Positions 3,902 through 30,225 of a stretch of 31,754 nucleotides of DNA are shown here, piece by piece. Source of the DNA: a virus; IMG/VR virus record IMGVR_UViG_3300027759_000289, positions 1 through 31,754 of that record. The stretch is one strand, 5' to 3'. Position 1 is the first letter of the stretch; every line of letters begins with the position of its first letter. The translations under genes were made by a program, and so were the position numbers. Below the pieces are notes generated by a model. That model was not told the origin of the DNA, made no database searches, and was given only the letters and a program-made list of their open reading frames with translations.

Positions 3902-3971
3902 AAGTCGCAACGGGATTCAAACCTGTGACACGTCCATAAATGGATTGCTCTACCAACTGAGCTATGCGACT
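3902..3971 (-). tRNA. tRNA-like gene with a 4-nt anticodon loop
   Basis: Acceptor AGTCGCA/TGCGACT pairs perfectly. T8-A9 and the D-arm GCTC-AGTTGGTA-GAGC are canonical, and the T-arm ACAGG-TTTGAAT-CCCGT has the usual 7-nt loop with one A-C mismatch. Between the D- and T-arms there are 20 nt rather than about 23. The only anticodon stem available is ATCCA/TGGAC (first pair mismatched), closing a loop of TTTA, so no normal 7-nt anticodon loop can form and the amino acid cannot be assigned. It is 70 nt long and ends in a T discriminator with no encoded CCA. It could be a decayed tRNA, a tRNA mimic, or a 3-nt sequencing deletion. Confidence 0.75.
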
Positions 3972-6269: not shown

Positions 6270-6647
6270 ATAATTCCAAGTAATTTTTTTAACTACTATT
6301 TCATCAATATCTGATATACCAAAATATTTTAATTCTTCTTTAATTGTTGCGTCGATGAATCTTCTTATGTATCTATTTGCACTTCTAGCGTGATTTTTTT
6401 GATATTGAGTTGAGTAAACCCAATAATCACATTTCATATCAACAATCACATCAAATTCATAAATGTATTTTTTGTAAGTGCGATACTTGTTATATCCGTC
6501 TGAATATTTTCTAATATTTGTTATTTTGACAACAGTGTTGTTATACTCACTCCATTTATATAAATTAACTAATTTAAAAATGTTTTTACACAAAAATTTT
6601 TTGATTAATGATATTTGTTTGTCTTTTACTAATTCTCTTTTTTCCAT
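6264..6647 (-). CDS. Hypothetical protein
   Basis: 127 residues, basic and tyrosine-rich, unrecognised. It starts with a charged helix (KRELVKDKQISLIKKFL), has a beta-like middle (YIYEFDVIVDMKCDYWVYS) and ends with a helix rich in Arg, Ile and Lys. No membrane segment is present. The gene follows a near-perfect host promoter (TTG-N19-TATCTTTG) and lies directly downstream of the large structured RNA and its terminator, so it probably has its own transcript. Confidence 0.65.
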   Translation of the reverse strand: MEKRELVKDKQISLIKKFLCKNIFKLVNLYKWSEYNNTVVKITNIRKYSDGYNKYRTYKKYIYEFDVIVDMKCDYWVYSTQYQKNHARSANRYIRRFIDATIKEELKYFGISDIDEIVVKKITWNYL

Positions 6648-6651
6648 ACCA

Positions 6652-6681
6652 CAAAGATATATAAAAAAATGAATTGCACAA
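6652..6681 (-). promoter_or_regulatory. Bacteroidota-type promoter TTG-N19-TATCTTTG
   Basis: TTG (plus 6679-6681), 19-nt spacer and TATCTTTG (plus 6652-6659) fit the consensus exactly. The box ends 4 nt before the ATG at 6647, so the mRNA would be leaderless or nearly so. Its TTG overlaps the U-tract of the upstream terminator. Confidence 0.7.
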
Positions 6682-6711
6682 AAAAATGGATAATAATATT
6701 TTACTATCCAT
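6680..6711 (-). terminator. Intrinsic terminator downstream of the large RNA
   Basis: ATGGATA and TATCCAT pair around an AT-rich 12-nt loop and are followed by seven U residues on the minus strand. It is a likely final stop for the structured RNA if the U9 tract at 6737-6745 is not its end. Confidence 0.75.
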
Positions 6712-6736
6712 CAATTTTTTTACCGGTGGCTCCATT

Positions 6737-7560
6737 AAAAAAAAACGCTGAGATTACACGTTTGTGTGAGAACCTTTAGAGTCATTATTGTTTCTACTCT
6801 TATCCACCATCTTTTGAATGGTATTTCTCAGTGACGATTATTTAGGTGAATCACTCCTTGAGGTCTAAACTACTCTCTTATTACTCAACTCTCTTCGAGG
6901 ATGCCTCCCCAACTAATCCTTGCGGGATTAGAGGTCTTTTGTAAAAATACACTCAGCCTTGGGAGCTTTATGTGCCGTGAACAACTCACGACTATGTAGT
7001 CACCTTTCGATTAGACCTGACGGACACTTTTCCTTATTTAAAATTAATAGTTAATAATAATTAAGTTTTGTGTCGTGGATTGTGAAAGTAGTGGTCCGTC
7101 ACGGGCTCTATTATCTTTTGAACAATAGAATACACAACTACTCTCTGAAATGTCCCCATTTCCATATTTCAAGACTACTTCGAAACTAACTCCTTGGTGG
7201 GAGTCGGTCAAGGTCAATAACAGCACCACCTGTACATCAACATACCTTTCGGTTTTAAGTATCCTCTAATAATGGAACTCGCAATAAAAGTGTTGGAACA
7301 CTTTGTTTTGCAAAATTCCTACGAGTTATTCCTATTGGTGTTCCCACCTCAATTAGACGACCCACATCGCCCAATCATCTAACCACTTTCCCTACAGCGT
7401 TGCCCTCGGTACTAAAGGTTAAACGGTATCCCGCTTGTGTACTCGACCTCGATTATCCGAAGACAACCAAGACGCAAATCAATTACACTTTTGATTCACT
7501 TTATCCCACTTTCGTGGTTTATTTTAATGGACCATACACGGCCCATTGAACTCTTCGTTT
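6737..7560 (-). ncRNA. Giant ornate structured RNA candidate (>800 nt)
   Basis: No convincing gene exists from 6648 to 7735, and GC rises to about 43-50% in parts, against about 12-30% nearby. On the minus strand many local hairpins form: 7526-7547 (8 bp), 7506-7517 (CCAC-GAAA-GTGG), 7353-7382 (8 bp), 7337-7348 (GGTG-GGAA-CACC), 7288-7303 (6 bp), 7244-7253 (ACC-GAAA-GGT), 7189-7204, 7146-7171, 7108-7128, 6976-6990, 6913-6931 (7 bp) and 6806-6822. Three loops are GNRA only in this orientation, fixing the strand. The RNA ends with U9 at 6737-6745. Large size, phage context and nearby tRNAs recall the GOLLD and ROOL classes; membership is untested. The ends are approximate, and the transcript may start near 7694. 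Confidence 0.72.
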
Positions 7561-7697
7561 CACAAATTTTAAAGAAAAGGGGGTTAATCTTTTTTTTTTA
7601 AATTTTGTTTGAACAATTTGTTCGTTTTAAATTTCAAAGAACGTTTGTGATTTGAATACTGAGTATCTTTCATCACCTATAAGTTTCAAATCTTTTA

Positions 7698-7728
7698 CAA
7701 ATTTATGTATTTAATTTGAGACTGTCAA
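7698..7728 (-). promoter_or_regulatory. Candidate promoter of the large RNA
   Basis: On the minus strand TTGACA begins at plus 7728, and TAAATTTG (plus 7698-7705) follows 20 nt after the TTG. It faces the structured RNA and would start it near 7694, leaving an AT-rich 5' region of about 130 nt before the first strong hairpin. Confidence 0.5.
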
Positions 7729-7735
7729 GTTTTTT

Positions 7736-7879
7736 TTAAACTTTTTCTACAAAAACATCTTCAGTTCCGTAGTAGTTTGCTCTCACACTTGCAAAGACTT
7801 CATTTGAAGTATAAAGTTTTCTTCCTTTATCGTCAAAATAATAAAAAATCTCTGAAATGTTGATTAAATCTTCACTCAT
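7736..7879 (-). CDS. Small hypothetical protein
   Basis: 47 residues, MSEDLINISEIFYYFDD to the end VFVEKV. Acidic, aromatic and probably a single compact domain; no family is recognised. It has a host-type promoter at 7928-7958, and its leader can form a hairpin at 7902-7922 (CAAT-GGG/CCC-ATTG with one bulge) right at the predicted 5' end, which could protect the mRNA. Its stop codon lies just before the candidate promoter of the large RNA. Confidence 0.6.
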   Translation of the reverse strand: MSEDLINISEIFYYFDDKGRKLYTSNEVFASVRANYYGTEDVFVEKV

Positions 7880-7927
7880 ACTTTCAATTTTTCAAATTAT
7901 ACAATGGGTCGTTTCCCAATTGTTTTA

Positions 7928-7958
7928 CAAATCTAATACTATTATTTTGATTTGTCAA
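7928..7958 (-). promoter_or_regulatory. Bacteroidota-type promoter TTG-N20-TAGATTTG
   Basis: TTG (plus 7956-7958) and TAGATTTG (plus 7928-7935) are 20 nt apart and face the gene at 7879. Between here and 8023 there is no gene, only AT-rich DNA with two overlapping ATATTTAT copies at 7992-8005. Confidence 0.55.
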
Positions 7959-8023
7959 ACATTACAATAAAAATTTTTTGATTTTTTTGTGATAAATATA
8001 AATATATCTAAGTTTACAAAAAG

Positions 8024-8521
8024 TTACAATTCAAGAAAATAAAAATCTTTTACGTCATCTGAATAGTGTAAATCGTATCCTAAATTTTTATATAAGTTTT
8101 GTGCGGTATTGTTTTCTCGATGAGTAATTAAAGTACAATACTTAAATCCTTCCTGTTTAGATACATCGTGAGCCAAATTCATAATTTGTTTTCCAAAACC
8201 ATTTCCTCTAAAATTTTCATTTACATATACATCGTAAATGTATGTGGTGTTGTCCCTATTAAAAAAGTTTTCATCACAATTTTTTTTGCACCAACTTTTT
8301 TCTTCATATAATCTAGGTATGTCATAATCTAATTCCCACCCATTATCAAAAGATACTACATTCGCATAACCAATTAAATTTTCATCTAAACCCATAATTT
8401 TGATTTTTTTCCCAAAAGTATTTTTAGTTTCCCCCTCAAATAAAATATTAGTTGGAATCTGACTACTTTCAAAAATATTCATCATAGATTTCATTCTTGA
8501 TATTTCTTCGTGTAGTTTCAT
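8024..8521 (-). CDS. GNAT-family N-acetyltransferase with N-terminal tag
   Basis: 165 residues. The acetyl-CoA binding motif A is clear: VNENFRGNGFGKQIMNLA (R/Q-x-x-G-x-G pattern), followed by the CTLITHRENNTAQNLYKNLG stretch typical of GNAT motif B, where N-x-x-A-x-x-L-Y-x-x-L-G-Y is usual. Residues 1-18 (MKLHEEISRMKSMMNIFE, then S) are an extra helix ending in I-F-E, the [I/L]-x-E pattern of the putative packaging tag. A 30-residue Cys/Asn/Lys insertion precedes the core. It lies 6 nt downstream of the tagged DHH protein and shares its transcript. The substrate is unknown. A virion-delivered acetyltransferase that modifies a host target is possible but is inference. Confidence 0.82.
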   Translation of the reverse strand: MKLHEEISRMKSMMNIFESSQIPTNILFEGETKNTFGKKIKIMGLDENLIGYANVVSFDNGWELDYDIPRLYEEKSWCKKNCDENFFNRDNTTYIYDVYVNENFRGNGFGKQIMNLAHDVSKQEGFKYCTLITHRENNTAQNLYKNLGYDLHYSDDVKDFYFLEL

Positions 8522-10047: not shown

Positions 10048-10074
10048 ATAAAAAACCCACTATAATGGTGGGTT
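10048..10074 (-). terminator. Intrinsic terminator at the end of the 14085-10060 run
   Basis: AACCCAC and GTGGGTT pair around a 7-nt loop, followed by an A-run (U-run on the minus strand). The stem overlaps the last codons of the methyltransferase at 10060 and its stop. Confidence 0.8.
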
Positions 10075-10911
10075 TTCTTGTAGAGTTTCTAATGTTTTGA
10101 AGTATTCAACTCTTGTTCTTGCAATATTTGTATAATTTTCACTTAGTTCTATTCCCAACCATCTTCGGTCAAGTATTTGTGCGGCAACTAAACTAGTACC
10201 ACTACCGGCAAATGGGTCCATAACTATATCGTTCTTGTAGGATAGTATTTTAATCGCTTTGGTTGGAATGTCCATTGAGAACGTTGCCTTGGTGAGTGAT
10301 TTAGTATCTGCAAAGTAATTCCACTGACCAAACACGAGTTCCATAAACTCTTTCTTATCGTTTTCTTCATAAACATTTTTAGTTCTTACAATACCATCTT
10401 TATTTTCAACCTCGGTGGGGACCCCTTTCCATTGTGGTTCTCCTTTAACTTTTTTAATATGATGTTTTTTATATGCCAAAATAACACACTCTTTTGGGTT
10501 GTAGATATAAGGTGATGATGGGCTCATCCAAGAACCCCAAGCTGTAGTTTTACTTCTATGTGGTGATTGTTCTTCAAGGTCGACAATACCAAAAAAACCA
10601 AATCCAATTTCTTTCATGATTTGCCACATTTCAGAAACAAAGAAAATTCGTCCACCTTTTTTCTGTCTATTAATTTCATAAGGAATATTGAGACTTATTC
10701 TACCATCGTCTTTTAATACTCTGTACGTTTCACTTAACCACGCCTTTGCAAACTCAACATATTCTGTGAACTCAACATCATCTTCATGTACGTCATAATC
10801 AATTCCCACACCATAAGGTGGGCTTGTAACAACCAAATCAATACACCCTTCTGGTAATGTCTTCATTACCTCAATACAATCACCGTTTATTATTTTTCCA
10901 GTTTCTATCAT
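10060..10911 (-). CDS. DNA methyltransferase, N4-cytosine/N6-adenine type (beta order)
   Basis: 283 residues. Motif IV, TSPPY at residues 29-33, precedes motif I, DPFAGSGT near residue 235, followed by the helix LVAAQILDRRWLGIELS. This order is that of beta-class amino-methyltransferases of the N6_N4_Mtase family. TSPPY is more usual in N4-cytosine enzymes and DPPY in N6-adenine enzymes, so m4C is slightly favoured. No restriction enzyme gene is beside it, so it is an orphan methylase. In a phage it would modify phage DNA against host restriction or mark it. It is the last gene of a tightly packed run and its end overlaps a terminator. Confidence 0.9.
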   Translation of the reverse strand: MIETGKIINGDCIEVMKTLPEGCIDLVVTSPPYGVGIDYDVHEDDVEFTEYVEFAKAWLSETYRVLKDDGRISLNIPYEINRQKKGGRIFFVSEMWQIMKEIGFGFFGIVDLEEQSPHRSKTTAWGSWMSPSSPYIYNPKECVILAYKKHHIKKVKGEPQWKGVPTEVENKDGIVRTKNVYEENDKKEFMELVFGQWNYFADTKSLTKATFSMDIPTKAIKILSYKNDIVMDPFAGSGTSLVAAQILDRRWLGIELSENYTNIARTRVEYFKTLETLQENPPL

Positions 10912-17126: not shown

Positions 17127-18866
17127 TTATGGAAGTAAATCTTCTACAAAGTCCAAATACTGATAATCTTGATGGTATAAAATATCATTTTGCCAATTCT
17201 GTAGTTCAGGTGTTGGGTAATTCCAATGTGGAGTCATCGCAATTACTCTAGTCCCTTCGTGTTCCAAACTTTTGAATGTCGACTCTTGCTCAACAGTTTT
17301 ACCATTACGATACTTTTTAACCATTTTTGGTAATTTTAAAGTTCCGAGTTTGTAAAGTAAGTTAATATTTGCAAGTTGAATTTTAGCGACTTGTGAAAAC
17401 TCTAACGATGGTGTTTCATTAAATCTAGCTCTTTCTTGAACATTCAATATTTCATCTATTTTGTATCTATATTCCACAGTTATTCTATCGTCACCATCTG
17501 TTGAGTCTTTACGAATTGAGAATATTAAACAATCTGGTCTTTCTGAATACCCTCGAACACAATTTCGTTGGTGTTGTGATTCTTTTTCATAGTCCGCAGT
17601 TTTTCTTAAAAGAACAGGATAATATGTTTCACCTTCGTGTTCGATTGGTGTTTCTAAACTATCTACATCACCATAGAATCTTTCAACTTCACCTTTTCTG
17701 TACGATTGTAAAAGGCGACTGAACTCTTCATGTTCTAAATTAAAACTACTAATGTTTGTGAATTTGAATTTAACATCTTCTCCAAGATTCATTAAATTTT
17801 TTTTCATCTCTAAATGGTCAATTAAAGTTCTCCATTTATAATGGTCAAAATATGGCATCAAATCTAAAATTCTATCTTTTTCTTTTGGAGTTAAAGGAAC
17901 TAATGTTCTACTCAAGAAATATTGATTAAATTGTTCTTTATCTGAATAAAAACATTCAAAAGACCCACCCATTTGATTCATTTCCATTGGCATTGTCTCA
18001 TCACCATAGTATGATTGAAATACTTTGTTTTCAATTTTGTTAAACCTATCAATTCCCAAAAGATTATATGTTAGATACAATCTATCAAAATCAATCCATT
18101 CCATTTCATTAAAAATCTGTTTAACTTTTGACCCTTTTAAATTTAGTTTTTTCATTATTGAATCAACCAAATTCATATTTGATGATTTTAAATCTTTCTT
18201 TGGAATAAAAAAATAAGTGAATTTTTTCCAACTGTTTGGAATTTTAATTCCATTGACCAAATAATATGTTAAACTATAAAATGACTCCGGTGAATCCCAC
18301 TTAAAATCCTGTGGATTTTCAATTCCTAATTTATCCCATATTTTTTCTAAAAAGAAAATAAAATGATTTTCAGGTTTTACGCTTTCATCAACATGAACAC
18401 TTCTTAAAAAACTTCGAACCGCAACATAAGTTGGATTAACTTTCATGCGAGCTCCCATTTTTTGTTTTTTCTTTGTGATAAATGTTCCTGAGTAGAACAA
18501 TTTAGTTTTGAAATTAAATGAAAAATATTCTGTTGTTTTTCTTTCAACAAAAAACTTACCTCCGACTCTTCTTTGCTTTGTATATAATTGATACTTTAAG
18601 GAAATTTTATTTTCACTTTCTTCGATAAAAAATCTATATCTTATTCTAAATACCGACGCGCAAGGGTTCCCGTAATGTTTAACAAAATCATCCTCAGAAA
18701 ATAGTTGGGTGTCGGTATAAAACTTTTCTTTGTTTTTTGTAAAATGAACTGACTCATAACTGTTATTATGTTTTGAGTCAATATCACAGAAGTTTTTATA
18801 AAGTTCAACTCTGTAATTCTTTTTTTCAATAAACTTATGAAATGTTTTTCCTTCTACTTCTAACAT
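17127..18866 (-). CDS. PcfJ-like protein
   Basis: 579 residues. Near residue 435 it has HQRNCVRGYSERPDCLIFSI followed by DDRITVEYRY and a later VQERARFNETP. This matches the conserved PcfJ-type core in which a Cys-Val-x-x-Tyr segment is followed by I-x-x-(I/L)-R and a beta strand (the family is known from conjugative plasmids and phages and has no proven activity). The first 170 residues are basic and beta-rich (KISLKYQLYTKQRRVGGKFF), and the middle is helical with many aromatic residues. It has no tag or membrane segment. It uses a host-type TATCTTTG box 4 nt before its start codon, suggesting expression apart from the tagged genes. Confidence 0.68.
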   Translation of the reverse strand: MLEVEGKTFHKFIEKKNYRVELYKNFCDIDSKHNNSYESVHFTKNKEKFYTDTQLFSEDDFVKHYGNPCASVFRIRYRFFIEESENKISLKYQLYTKQRRVGGKFFVERKTTEYFSFNFKTKLFYSGTFITKKKQKMGARMKVNPTYVAVRSFLRSVHVDESVKPENHFIFFLEKIWDKLGIENPQDFKWDSPESFYSLTYYLVNGIKIPNSWKKFTYFFIPKKDLKSSNMNLVDSIMKKLNLKGSKVKQIFNEMEWIDFDRLYLTYNLLGIDRFNKIENKVFQSYYGDETMPMEMNQMGGSFECFYSDKEQFNQYFLSRTLVPLTPKEKDRILDLMPYFDHYKWRTLIDHLEMKKNLMNLGEDVKFKFTNISSFNLEHEEFSRLLQSYRKGEVERFYGDVDSLETPIEHEGETYYPVLLRKTADYEKESQHQRNCVRGYSERPDCLIFSIRKDSTDGDDRITVEYRYKIDEILNVQERARFNETPSLEFSQVAKIQLANINLLYKLGTLKLPKMVKKYRNGKTVEQESTFKSLEHEGTRVIAMTPHWNYPTPELQNWQNDILYHQDYQYLDFVEDLLP

Positions 18867-20641: not shown

Positions 20642-21481
20642 TTAGTAGTTCATAATGAGTAATTCTTCACCCATATTTTGTTTTTCTCCTTTCTTGGCGG
20701 CGGCAGCTTTTGCAAACTCTTTTTTAACCCAATTGTATTGGTCTTCAGGAAACCACTGATGTAATAAGTCAAAATCGTAATATGATAATGAAAATTTACC
20801 CTGAACATTATGTAAAACATTTGCCAATCTTTCGTGGTCTTGTCTATCAAAATCATGATTAGAGTAGTAATTCTCAGTTTTCCAATAAGGTGGGTCCAAA
20901 TAGATGTAAGTGGATGGTGAGTCGTATTTATTAATAACGTCAGCAAAATCCATATTTTCTACATCTGTAATCTTTAAAAAATGGTCTACCCAATCAGGTT
21001 TTGATAACTTATCTCTAAAGGTAAGATATTTTGATTTATACTTCCCTTTAAGGTCAATAAAGTTAGATGTTTCAGGTTTTGACCCACTAAATACTTGTGT
21101 TAGAATATAAACGTATTTGGCTGCAACCTCGTAATCGCCAGGTTCTACGCTGAAACCTTCATTAAAAACTTCAGCCTGAAAGCTTACAAATTGATTTCTA
21201 TAAATCTCAGGAGTGATGTCCACACCTTGTTTTTGACAATCAATAGAGTTAATTGCTCGTAACAATTCAGTTGGGTTTTGAACACACTTGAATAGATTAT
21301 AGTTCAGTGGATTAAAATCATTATAAACCACTTTTTTAAGATTCGGGAACTGTTTTAGGTCCATATTATAGAAACACCAAAACATTCCTCCAAAAGTCTC
21401 TAAATAGACCTCCATATTTTTATCGTAGAAAGGGACTATCCACTTTCCAATTTTACTCTTACCGCCAATGTATGAAACCAA
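20642..21481 (-). CDS. Dam-type (D12 class) N6-adenine DNA methyltransferase
   Basis: 279 residues. The N-terminal YIGGKSKIGKWIV is the G-G-K motif of D12 enzymes, followed by the SAM-binding segment ETFGGMFWCFYNM (about 29-41, usually FVGGGAVFF). The catalytic DPPY sits in IYLDPPYW near residue 195, with the target-recognition part between, as in alpha-class enzymes. It transfers a methyl group to adenine N6. The motif I loop is somewhat divergent (FGG for the usual GGG). No partner nuclease is present. Immediately upstream (5 nt) is a LAGLIDADG gene, a common neighbour of conserved phage genes. Confidence 0.88.
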   Translation of the reverse strand: MVSYIGGKSKIGKWIVPFYDKNMEVYLETFGGMFWCFYNMDLKQFPNLKKVVYNDFNPLNYNLFKCVQNPTELLRAINSIDCQKQGVDITPEIYRNQFVSFQAEVFNEGFSVEPGDYEVAAKYVYILTQVFSGSKPETSNFIDLKGKYKSKYLTFRDKLSKPDWVDHFLKITDVENMDFADVINKYDSPSTYIYLDPPYWKTENYYSNHDFDRQDHERLANVLHNVQGKFSLSYYDFDLLHQWFPEDQYNWVKKEFAKAAAAKKGEKQNMGEELLIMNY

Positions 21482-21486
21482 AACTA

Positions 21487-22170
21487 TTATTTTTTTCTAT
21501 ATTTATTTTTACTACTAATTATATTAATAACCTCATCAAAGATAATCTTTTTTCTATTTAAAAACAAGTCCGTTTCAGAATAAAACCCATTGTAAATCTT
21601 TTCAATATCTGACATACCTGCCCACCCAACAAATTTATATTCTTTATTTTTTGGTCCGTAAAGTTTATTAACATTAACTCCAAATAATTTACCCATCCTT
21701 TCATTTAAAGTATTTATGAAATTAACTGACCCACCAACAATTCTCAAGTCCCCTCGTTTAGAATTATCTTTTTTGTCTTCATTTATTCTAATACACCCAT
21801 CACCATCAAAATATCCTCGTAAAAAATGTCTTTCAAGATTTTCATCAATTTTAGGGTAACTTATTGTATAAGTTTTGTTTGGGTGTAATCCAATCTTTTT
21901 TAAGTCATTTATCATTTTCTTACTTGAAAACCCGATTTCAGAAATTTCTCTATGATTACTTCTCCATATTTCAACTTCACTATCTAATAAGGATATAAAC
22001 TTTTTTAATATATCTTCATCTTTATTATGAATTTTAATATTTAATTTATATCTATATTCTTTTGGATTGTCAATTAAACATCCATCAGCATAGATAAAAC
22101 CAAGAAAATAAGCCTTATCTGGAGTATCAATCGTCTTAAAATAATCTTCATTAAATTTTTTTCTTATCAT
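21487..22170 (-). CDS. LAGLIDADG homing endonuclease
   Basis: 227 residues with two LAGLIDADG helices: AYFLGFIYADG at 20-30 and HFLRGYFDGDG near 111-121. Both have the acidic residue that binds the catalytic metal. A single chain with two motifs acts as a monomer that cuts a long site and spreads its gene. The flanking genes are intact, so it is free-standing rather than inside an intron. Its start lies within the end of a ribbon-helix-helix-like ORF (20-nt overlap in another frame), and its stop is 5 nt before the Dam-type gene, whose unmodified relatives are a likely target. Confidence 0.9.
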   Translation of the reverse strand: MIRKKFNEDYFKTIDTPDKAYFLGFIYADGCLIDNPKEYRYKLNIKIHNKDEDILKKFISLLDSEVEIWRSNHREISEIGFSSKKMINDLKKIGLHPNKTYTISYPKIDENLERHFLRGYFDGDGCIRINEDKKDNSKRGDLRIVGGSVNFINTLNERMGKLFGVNVNKLYGPKNKEYKFVGWAGMSDIEKIYNGFYSETDLFLNRKKIIFDEVINIISSKNKYRKK

Positions 22171-22409: not shown

Positions 22410-22565
22410 ATGAAAAAAGAAAAAGCAACAGAAGTGGAGTGTAGTATTTGTAAAAAGGGTATGTCCAACTCTCAAATTTGGATTACTATTTTGGCGGTTT
22501 ACATGTTAATCGCGGCGGTCTACGGAACAATAGAAATCGTTAAAAATATAATGTCTTTATTTTAA
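22410..22565 (+). CDS. Small membrane protein with N-terminal CxxC
   Basis: 51 residues. A basic start carries C11-S-I-C14 in VECSICKKGMS, a single zinc-knuckle half or redox pair, and residues about 22-44 form one transmembrane segment (IWITILAVYMLIAAVYGTI). The CxxC end probably faces the cytoplasm. It overlaps the DnaJ gene's end by 9 nt in convergent orientation. Two such proteins could together complete a metal site; that is inference. No family is recognised. Confidence 0.65.
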   Translation: MKKEKATEVECSICKKGMSNSQIWITILAVYMLIAAVYGTIEIVKNIMSLF

Positions 22566-23519
22566 TATATTATTAATTTGTTCTCTTTGTTCGTTAGTTA
22601 AAGTCAGATTATTCTGTATGCTTATTTTTATGTAAAAATTACCAACAGCACCATCAACTTTATATCCTTTTTTGAAAAGTCTTAATGGTTTTTCAGTATC
22701 AAATCCTTCAGGTAGATTTATTTTTATATTACCATCAGGGTGAGGTATTTCAACTTGGTCGTTTATTAATAAGTCTTTGAAATTTAATTTTAGATAATAA
22801 ATCAAATCATTTCCTGATTTTTCAAAATTGTTGTGTTTCATACACAAAACTTTTAAAATTAAATCGCCCCTACCATATTTAGGTATTTCATCCCCCATAC
22901 CTCTCATTCTCATAAAGTCACCATTATCTACATTGTTTGGTATTTGTACATTAAACTTGCTGTGGTTAGAAATAACCCCATTACCATAACAAACCCCACA
23001 CGCGTCAATTAAATGTTCACCAGTCCCTTTACATTCGAAACAATTTGATTGCATTTGTGTTTTGAAAAATCCCGTACCAACTGTTTGTATAATAAACCCT
23101 CTACCTGCACATCTTGTGCATGTTTTTTTAGTTCCACCAGTTCCCGTGCAACTTTCACAAGATTTATTTGTGTCAACTTCGATTGTTTTTTCCACACCTT
23201 TATAGGATTCTTCAGGGGTAACTACTATTTCAATAATTTTGTCAGCCGGTTTAGGTTGTCTTTGTGAATGTCCCATCATTTCCTCAAAAATTGACCCGAA
23301 CCCACCATTTCCAAATGGGTTTCTACGTTTCATGTCGTAATCACTTCTTTTATTGTCGTCCTTTAAAATATCATAAGCTTCAGAGATTTCTTTAAATTTT
23401 TCTTCACCGTTTGGGTTTACATCTGGATGGTATTGCTTACTTAGTTTTTTATATGTTTTTTTTATATCATCTTGTGTTGCATTTTCACTTACACCTAATA
23501 TTTCGTAATAGTTTTTCAT
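22557..23519 (-). CDS. dnaJ: DnaJ (Hsp40) co-chaperone
   Basis: 320 residues, shorter than the usual 370-380. J-domain at 1-65 with HPD at 31-33, which is needed to stimulate DnaK ATPase. A short Gly/Phe linker (about 67-78, NPFGNGGFG) follows. The zinc-binding region starts at C121 and has all four CxxCxGxG units (CESCTGTG, CTRCAGRG, CFECKGTG, CGVCYGNG), then both C-terminal substrate-binding parts. All key residues are present, so it should be active with host DnaK. The shortness comes mainly from the linker and the C-terminus. Its start codon is separated by 1 nt from a divergent plus-strand gene at 23521. Confidence 0.93.
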   Translation of the reverse strand: MKNYYEILGVSENATQDDIKKTYKKLSKQYHPDVNPNGEEKFKEISEAYDILKDDNKRSDYDMKRRNPFGNGGFGSIFEEMMGHSQRQPKPADKIIEIVVTPEESYKGVEKTIEVDTNKSCESCTGTGGTKKTCTRCAGRGFIIQTVGTGFFKTQMQSNCFECKGTGEHLIDACGVCYGNGVISNHSKFNVQIPNNVDNGDFMRMRGMGDEIPKYGRGDLILKVLCMKHNNFEKSGNDLIYYLKLNFKDLLINDQVEIPHPDGNIKINLPEGFDTEKPLRLFKKGYKVDGAVGNFYIKISIQNNLTLTNEQREQINNILK

Positions 23520-29084: not shown

Positions 29085-29630
29085 TTATTCTTCTTCTGTA
29101 AATTTAGTTTTTTTCCTAACTGAAATTATTTTCGCCCATTTGCTTTTAAATTTTTCAAAAAAAGATTTTAATTTGTTTGTTAAATCAACAAGCTCTTGGT
29201 CCAATTTAATCATATCCCCATTTATATATACACCGTTGTTTTCGCCAATAGAATAGAAAAACTCAACGTCAGCATCAACTATCTTACCACTCCATTGAAC
29301 TGAATTACTATAAACATTTAATACTCCAAAGTCTGAAAGGTCAGATACTTCATTAACAAATTCTTCCATGGTTTCTTGATAAGATTGTTTTTCGTCGTTT
29401 GTTAATTCCAACTCTTTTTTATCTTTACCATGAAGAGTTAAAAGACCTCCCGATATACGATAAGTTTTACTTTTGTCTTTTTTTACTTTATCAACATCAA
29501 CTTCAGTTTCTTGTTCCTCATCTTGTTCGATGTTGTCTTCAATACTTTTTGCCATATTAATTGGTCCTACTTGTTCTTGCAAAAGTCTAGACCTTTTCAA
29601 CAACATTTTTATTTCATCATACTGGTTCAT
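29085..29630 (-). CDS. Tagged hypothetical protein
   Basis: 181 residues. The tag NQYDEIKMLLKRSRLLQE ends in L17-Q-E19 followed by Q. An acidic segment with Glu/Asp/Val/Lys (about 33-52) follows, then a folded beta-rich domain (TYRISGGLLTLHGKDKKELE, later VDADVEFFYSIGENNGVYIN) and a basic helix at the end. No family is recognised. It overlaps the amidase-fold gene by 14 nt, so translation may be coupled. Confidence 0.7.
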   Translation of the reverse strand: MNQYDEIKMLLKRSRLLQEQVGPINMAKSIEDNIEQDEEQETEVDVDKVKKDKSKTYRISGGLLTLHGKDKKELELTNDEKQSYQETMEEFVNEVSDLSDFGVLNVYSNSVQWSGKIVDADVEFFYSIGENNGVYINGDMIKLDQELVDLTNKLKSFFEKFKSKWAKIISVRKKTKFTEEE

Positions 29631-30225
29631 ATTCTTCTAATAATTTTTCAAAATTGTTAAAATTGAAAGATGGGTTTATATCTCTACAGTTTGAATTGTA
29701 ATTGCTTTTTGTTGCAACTCCGTTAAAGTTTTCAACTCCCGATAATTTGACATTTGTTTTTGTTGTCTTTTTATCGATGTTAAACTTTTCACACAACTCA
29801 TGTGTTAAAAAAACCAAACTTTCAATTTGTTTTTGAGTATATGGGTCCCAAAAAAATTGTTCTCTCCATTTTTTTTCAAAAACTTTCTCTTTATAAATAT
29901 CACCTATCCAATTTAAATAGTTTGTTTCTATTGGTATTTTTTTTAACCAAGTTAAATTCTCTAAAACAATAGTTATAGAGTTTTTGTCAACCGACTCATC
30001 ACCTATGTAATTTGAATACATATTAGGTTCTGAAATCATAAATATTTCACCACTTTTATTAATTAAATAATTAGGTAGATGTGGGTTATTTTGATTGTAC
30101 CTGTGTAATAATGATTGTATATAAAATCTATAAGGCCTTTTAGTGTCGGCCAAAATTATTTGACTTTTTTTGTCGTTACGAGACAGAACTTCAGATTCTA
30201 TTAATTTTGAAATTACCTGTATCAT
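29617..30225 (-). CDS. N-acetylmuramoyl-L-alanine amidase-fold protein, probably inactive
   Basis: 202 residues. The order of segments follows Amidase_2/T7-lysozyme proteins: IILADTKRP (usual IVIHHT), NYLINKSGEIFMI (usual YHYVIDRDGTI), SITIVLEN (usual SIGIELVN), YTQKQIESLVFLTHEL (usual YTdxQxxaLxxLxxxL) and NCRDINPSF (usual KxDPGPxF). The first zinc histidine is replaced by Ala in ILADT, and the HAG-type and GH-type histidines are missing too; only a Cys resembling the third ligand of T7 lysozyme remains. It may therefore bind but not cut peptidoglycan. The N-terminus VISKLIE followed by S matches the packaging tag. It overlaps the upstream gene by 35 nt. Confidence 0.6.
   Translation of the reverse strand: MIQVISKLIESEVLSRNDKKSQIILADTKRPYRFYIQSLLHRYNQNNPHLPNYLINKSGEIFMISEPNMYSNYIGDESVDKNSITIVLENLTWLKKIPIETNYLNWIGDIYKEKVFEKKWREQFFWDPYTQKQIESLVFLTHELCEKFNIDKKTTKTNVKLSGVENFNGVATKSNYNSNCRDINPSFNFNNFEKLLEEYEPV

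Follow-up and report, generated by a model that had tools for sequence, protein, structure and literature searches.

A large phage with a very probable full-length GOLLD RNA and a putative rRNA-like leader

Which RNA, if any, is made from a stretch of about 1 kb of phage DNA in which an earlier note had seen no credible gene? The stretch lies on the minus strand of the window, i.e., the whole 31,754-base IMG/VR record analysed here, and was proposed in that note to encode a giant structured non-coding RNA recalling GOLLD or ROOL. When scanned against Rfam 15 with cmscan, positions 6745-7145 (minus strand) match the GOLLD model RF02032 with a score of 335 bits against a cut-off of 150 (E 1.3e-95), and the alignment runs end to end (model positions 1-416 of 416) at more than twice the gathering cut-off. 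GOLLD is the only one of the four families named in the note to be found; ROOL, OLE and HEARO gave no Rfam match up to E = 10 over 6400-8000. The likeness to GOLLD is thus upheld while that to ROOL is not, and the suggestion of a divergent member or a new class gives way before a match over the whole model. We are highly confident that the RNA at 7547-6745 (minus strand) is a canonical, full-length and functional GOLLD RNA of a large phage. The GOLLD family is already known, and the part of this locus worth following is its rRNA-like leader.

Rfam models GOLLD only in its conserved 3' half; the structured 5' domain that precedes this half, of ~400 nt, is less conserved. The conserved RNA of the window spans about 803 nt, from 7547 to 6745, and comprises two domains (Table 1); the transcript is probably about 1 kb long. 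The GC content of 6745-7547 is 40.2%, compared with 29.0% in the rest of the window, and is matched by no 803-nt segment sampled every 50 bases. Folding is strand specific, with z-scores over 6737-7560 of -4.4 on the minus strand and -1.9 on the plus strand, and over 7146-7600 of -4.1 and -1.1, respectively. Both the raised GC content and the minus-strand structure described in the earlier note are therefore real, the three tetraloop hairpins that it listed (GAAA, GGAA, and GAAA) were located, and its U9 tract is present directly 3' of the last GOLLD hairpin. Of the terminator that it placed downstream, a hairpin stands, with the weaknesses given in Table 1. In the published GOLLD structure, loop L11a is GAAA (PMC12286853), and our guess is that the hairpin at 7244-7254 corresponds to this conserved loop. 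Neither ARAGORN nor Rfam finds a tRNA inside the linker.

Table 1. Positions of the RNA elements and genes discussed, numbered from the first letter of the window
Feature	Position	Strand	Basis
Bacteroidota-type promoter TTGACAGTCTCAAATTAAATACATAAATTTG	7698-7728	-	pattern TTG-N20-TAnnTTTG
boxA-like element GTTCTTTGA, candidate NusB/S10 (Nus-factor) antitermination site	7634-7642	-	GTTCTTT(G/A)A in leader
GOLLD 5' domain (cap domain of published cage), outside Rfam model	7146-7547	-	homology in relatives, covariation
GAAA tetraloop hairpin	7517-7506	-	sequence
5'-domain loop GAUGUGGGUCG	7358-7368	-	covaries with AUCCAC at 7080-7070
GGAA tetraloop hairpin	7348-7337	-	sequence
Hairpin AACC-GAAA-GGU	7254-7244	-	GAAA loop in almost all 18 aligned sequences
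GOLLD 3' domain	6745-7145	-	Rfam RF02032 match
Linker region, A/U-rich, middle variable	7032-7082	-	alignment A1, roughly columns 560-620
Junction strand AGGAAA pairing with loop L20	7029-7034	-	covariation, 80 sequences
Hairpin with loop L20, bridge B7 partner	6955-6967	-	covariation 7032 x 6962
Hairpins L21a (CGCAA loop) and L21b (GGCA loop)	6897-6928	-	published bridges B8, B9
U9 tract	6737-6745	-	sequence; directly after last GOLLD hairpin
Weak A/U-rich candidate terminator hairpin	6680-6711	-	sequence; absent from terminator-scan list
GNAT acetyltransferase	8024-8521	-	
N6/N4 DNA methyltransferase	10060-10911	-	
Glutamine-synthetase-like phage protein	11903-13021	-	N- and C-terminal domain matches
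PcfJ-like protein	17127-18866	-	
D12-class adenine methyltransferase	20642-21481	-	
LAGLIDADG endonuclease	21487-22170	-	
Complete DnaJ-like chaperone	22557-23519	-	J domain, central CXXCXGXG domain, C-terminal domain
Amidase_2	29617-30225	-	

The RNA has many relatives: more than 100 contigs of viruses and records of phages carry one. When IMG/VR was searched with a pattern taken from the 3' half, 35 contigs were recovered, 35 of 35 scoring above the GOLLD cut-off, and a second pattern returned many more. In blastn searches with 7760-6600 (minus strand), most relatives align over the whole element, whose start falls repeatedly at about 7547. Full-length dereplicated relatives in IMG/VR show 66-100% identity, while full-length GOLLD RNAs are also found at about 61% identity in two ~640-kb uncultured phage records (LR756502 and LR745206) and at about 55% in Acinetobacter phages. 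No GOLLD was found by exact pattern in genome_contigs, and none in 148 Bacteroidota genomes, a search whose controls gave no signal either; neither result shows absence.

Covariation in the stems, on which the earlier note had staked its reading, is massive. In a consensus fold of 18 aligned sequences (RNAalifold), 186 pairs are predicted, and 121 of them have changed on both sides. In the 5' domain alone there are 102 pairs (96.3% of cells paired), 69 of them with double changes, compared with 38.7 (SD 3.5) in shuffled alignments, none of 500 reaching 69; the covariation score is 0.522 vs. 0.231 when shuffled, but because the rows are related the shuffle tests are inflated and give counts, not probabilities, while slid controls, which keep this relatedness, agree (at most 0.115). 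Consensus folding of this domain gives an energy of -90.5 for the RNA itself, compared with -18.8 for the complementary strand and -6.2 after column shuffling.

These results bear on what else the stretch might be. A divergent or entirely new kind of giant phage RNA would fit the lack of an Rfam model for roughly half of the length (7146-7547), and no consensus match had been seen by eye; yet the 3' half matches every position of the GOLLD model with its 335 bits, and the 5' half is of the expected size (about 402 nt vs. 420 in GOLLD env-38), accompanies the GOLLD 3' domain by shared inheritance at about 120 loci, and starts, by eye, much as Acinetobacter phage GOLLDs do. We consider a new class very improbable. 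The size, phage setting and tRNA neighbourhood would suit a ROOL, OLE or HEARO RNA, but the absence of all three from the Rfam matches up to E = 10 leaves that identification next to no probability. Scarcely any credence is due either to a coding region in decay or to a genuine small gene, even though ORFs of 61 and 54 aa, the only ones overlapping the GOLLD stretch, do exist: no frame stays consistently open in the 18 homologues, changes follow base pairs, and no conserved frame with a synonymous bias was seen. The view that the stretch holds no credible gene is borne out, and the protein-like codon conservation that the earlier note had set against its own proposal does not appear.

Only a handful of natural RNAs, GOLLD among them, are known to assemble a protein-free cage. 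The clade of the window contributes dozens of homologues of full length, with the 5' domain that is missing from Rfam, as well as independent covariation for contacts between subunits. The 833-nt GOLLD env-38 forms an RNA-only, hollow 14-mer cage (PMC12286853), the source cited for its contacts being Kretsch et al. Bridge B7 of this cage is an intermolecular kissing interaction of L20 with J13/15, while bridges B8 and B9 are formed by self-kissing of L21a and L21b (PMC12286853). Among 80 sequences, the covariation of 7032 with 6962 ranks third of all pairs outside the nested structure, and the L20 loop and the junction strand switch together (AGG with CC, AGC with GC, and AUCG with CGA), the window carrying the GG/CC version. 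We take the junction strand to be J13/15, a label assigned from the text of PMC12286853. The L21a loops of relatives read CGCAA/UCGCAAG (49), GUCGAA(U) (21), or CAUAA (7), with a central dinucleotide (GC, CG or AU) that is self-complementary in every loop cleanly extracted; the text of PMC12286853 has GC and CG only, and the AU version sets the relatives that carry it apart from env-38. The loop at 7368-7358 and the segment 7080-7070 show joint changes (GUGGAU/AUCCAC, GUAGAU/AUCUAC, and ACCGGU/AUCGGU) and form what is, on this covariation, a contact between the 5' and 3' domains, while a pseudoknot pairs 7005-6997 with 6838-6829, again by covariation. Judged by its sequence, the window RNA retains those loop contacts by which GOLLD 14-mers are known to be joined, and its family membership suggests that it would very likely assemble into a 14-mer cage.

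How, then, is the RNA made? The pattern TTG-N20-TAnnTTTG is the promoter form of Bacteroidota. The candidate promoter reported in the earlier note is genuine as a motif and is of this Bacteroidota type, with transcription predicted to start near 7690. The pattern occurs five times in the window (1.5 expected). Among 58 relatives that were dereplicated at 90% and have readable flanks, 53 have a promoter of this type in the 330 nt preceding the GOLLD RNA, as did 16 of 18 loci in a first set of relatives, for which 0.11 was expected per locus. Between promoter and RNA lies a second conserved element, GTTCTTT(G/A)A, which 56 of the 58 carry no more than 200 nt ahead of the RNA, compared with a mono-shuffle expectation of 0.135 loci and a local background of 0.015 per 200 nt. 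It sits 57-59 nt from the promoter in about half of the relatives, and its distance to the RNA varies from about 16 to 120 nt. Since this word is fixed amid varying flanks and distances, common descent of the leader would not by itself account for it. It was not found in 2 of the 58 leaders or in either Acinetobacter phage locus, and boxA is therefore not family-wide in GOLLD. In the open literature we found no paper joining GOLLD with boxA or antitermination, and none describing the promoter and boxA-like leader of these relatives.

Our proposal for this leader is modeled on rRNA operons. Host RNA polymerase would start at the Bacteroidota-type promoter, the nascent leader would expose the boxA-like site, and Nus factors would join the polymerase as they do on rRNA operons, so that the long untranslated RNA could be completed despite Rho. 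The GOLLD RNA would then fold and assemble into a hollow 14-subunit cage as solved for env-38, with the linker inside. The leader motifs tilt us somewhat toward transcription of GOLLD by the host polymerase with rRNA-style Nus antitermination; we also slightly favor the broader reading that Bacteroidota phages make GOLLD as an imitation rRNA transcript, with a housekeeping promoter of the host and a boxA leader shared with phage tRNA arrays. If true, the imitation-rRNA reading ties cage production to the host machinery for rRNA transcription and explains how a long untranslated RNA escapes Rho. The promoter and boxA-like leader offer a concrete handle on how and when GOLLD is made.

The serious alternative, to which we give an appreciable though smaller than even chance, accepts the GOLLD RNA and takes the leader word for some other conserved signal, such as a processing site or the site of a phage regulator, instead of a Nus-factor boxA. 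In its favor, boxA function is read here from sequence alone, and in a test on real 16S leaders from 18 Bacteroidota genomes the exact 9-mer was missing from 6. Against it, the word is present in the other 12 of these 18 leaders (0.1 expected), precedes phage tRNAs in 13 places, and resembles the gamma-proteobacterial boxA, GYTCTTTAANA (PMC5725501). In Escherichia coli, the rRNA antitermination complex is recruited by boxA, which is both necessary and sufficient for this (PMC10250234). Read as a boxA leader, the GOLLD leader is like those of rRNA operons in its order of parts: a promoter, then GTTCTTT(G/A)A, then a long structured RNA that is not translated (PMC10250234); the difference is that the downstream RNA here is a phage GOLLD, for which the role of boxA is putative. 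Another word, GTTCTTTGACATATTG, was rejected as a 16S-leader word, none of its 121 genome matches falling within 1.5 kb before a 16S start. In two close relatives, the tRNA arrays are headed by a Bacteroidota-type promoter and GTTCTTTGA (L036:10271-10440 and L023:1101-1270), a leader built like that of GOLLD. A duplicated GOLLD leader was considered for these two arrays and discarded; they share the promoter and boxA motifs with it but no long homology.

Compared through its published description (PMC12286853), env-38 resembles the window RNA in being phage-borne, with ~800 nt in two domains and a variable linker, and in its L20 kissing-loop and L21a self-kissing contacts, which covary in the relatives of the window. 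Env-38 adjoins tRNA-Met, as relatives of the window often do. The window differs in its apparent Bacteroidota phage host, in its leader composed of a Bacteroidota-type promoter and a boxA-like site, and in a linker without tRNA. GOLLDs of the Acinetobacter phages vB_AciJM_313, Herod, and YMC13/03/R2096 align with it in blastn across the 3' domain and some of the 5' domain but, unlike that of the window, are embedded in long tRNA arrays, and the stretch fetched from them lacks the boxA-like word. ROOL, too, is a phage-borne, cage-forming giant RNA near tRNAs (PMC12286853), but without sequence or model match to the window. As for the role of the cage, our tentative first choice, at less than even odds, is the handling of tRNAs or the translation machinery while the phage grows lytically, because GOLLD has its neighbourhood, its type of promoter, and its boxA-like leader in common with phage tRNA arrays. 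Expression of the GOLLD of a Lactobacillus brevis prophage rises in lytic infection (PMC7567579, PMC12286853). That RNA is dispensable for phage production (PMC7567579), and a strong growth phenotype should therefore not be expected.

The record is almost certainly a fragment, because its GOLLD stretch is 97.6% identical in a 120-kb contig. No hallmark capsid or terminase gene was recognised in these 31.7 kb, and tblastn with the DnaJ and PcfJ-like proteins as queries yielded distant matches at best. Taking only the promoter and leader motifs as a guide, the host of the phage is most likely a member of the Bacteroidota. The RNA had been described as lying beside tRNA genes, which is generous: the window does have two tRNAs (ARAGORN, Rfam), located 2.5-2.8 kb downstream of GOLLD, and no tRNA-Met(CAT) lies directly beside it. 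In 16 of 60 relative loci, a tRNA-Met is found on the same strand, either up to about 700 nt upstream or just downstream of GOLLD. Directly downstream, on the same strand, tRNA-Met(CAT) is seen in seven loci (L004, L005, L007, L008, L012, L016, and L033), and directly upstream in L002, L021, L028, L031, L038, and others.

Several minor observations concern the same neighbourhoods. For the ~640-kb records LR756502 (L037) and LR745206 (L038), ARAGORN reports nearby tRNAs with 2-nt anticodons, and in another relative (L022:5439-5846, minus strand) it reports a possible tmRNA, which may be false, about 1 kb from GOLLD. At 3902-3971 (minus strand), the window contains a tRNA-like element (Rfam, 47.6 bits) that ARAGORN missed. 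Its anticodon arm is short (TCCA-TTTA-TGGA), without the usual 7-nt loop; the acceptor, D, and T arms are kept in eight related contigs, and the loop varies. Finally, a 47-aa ORF (7736-7879, minus strand) lies just upstream of the GOLLD promoter and has a Bacteroidota-type promoter of its own at 7928-7958 (minus strand).
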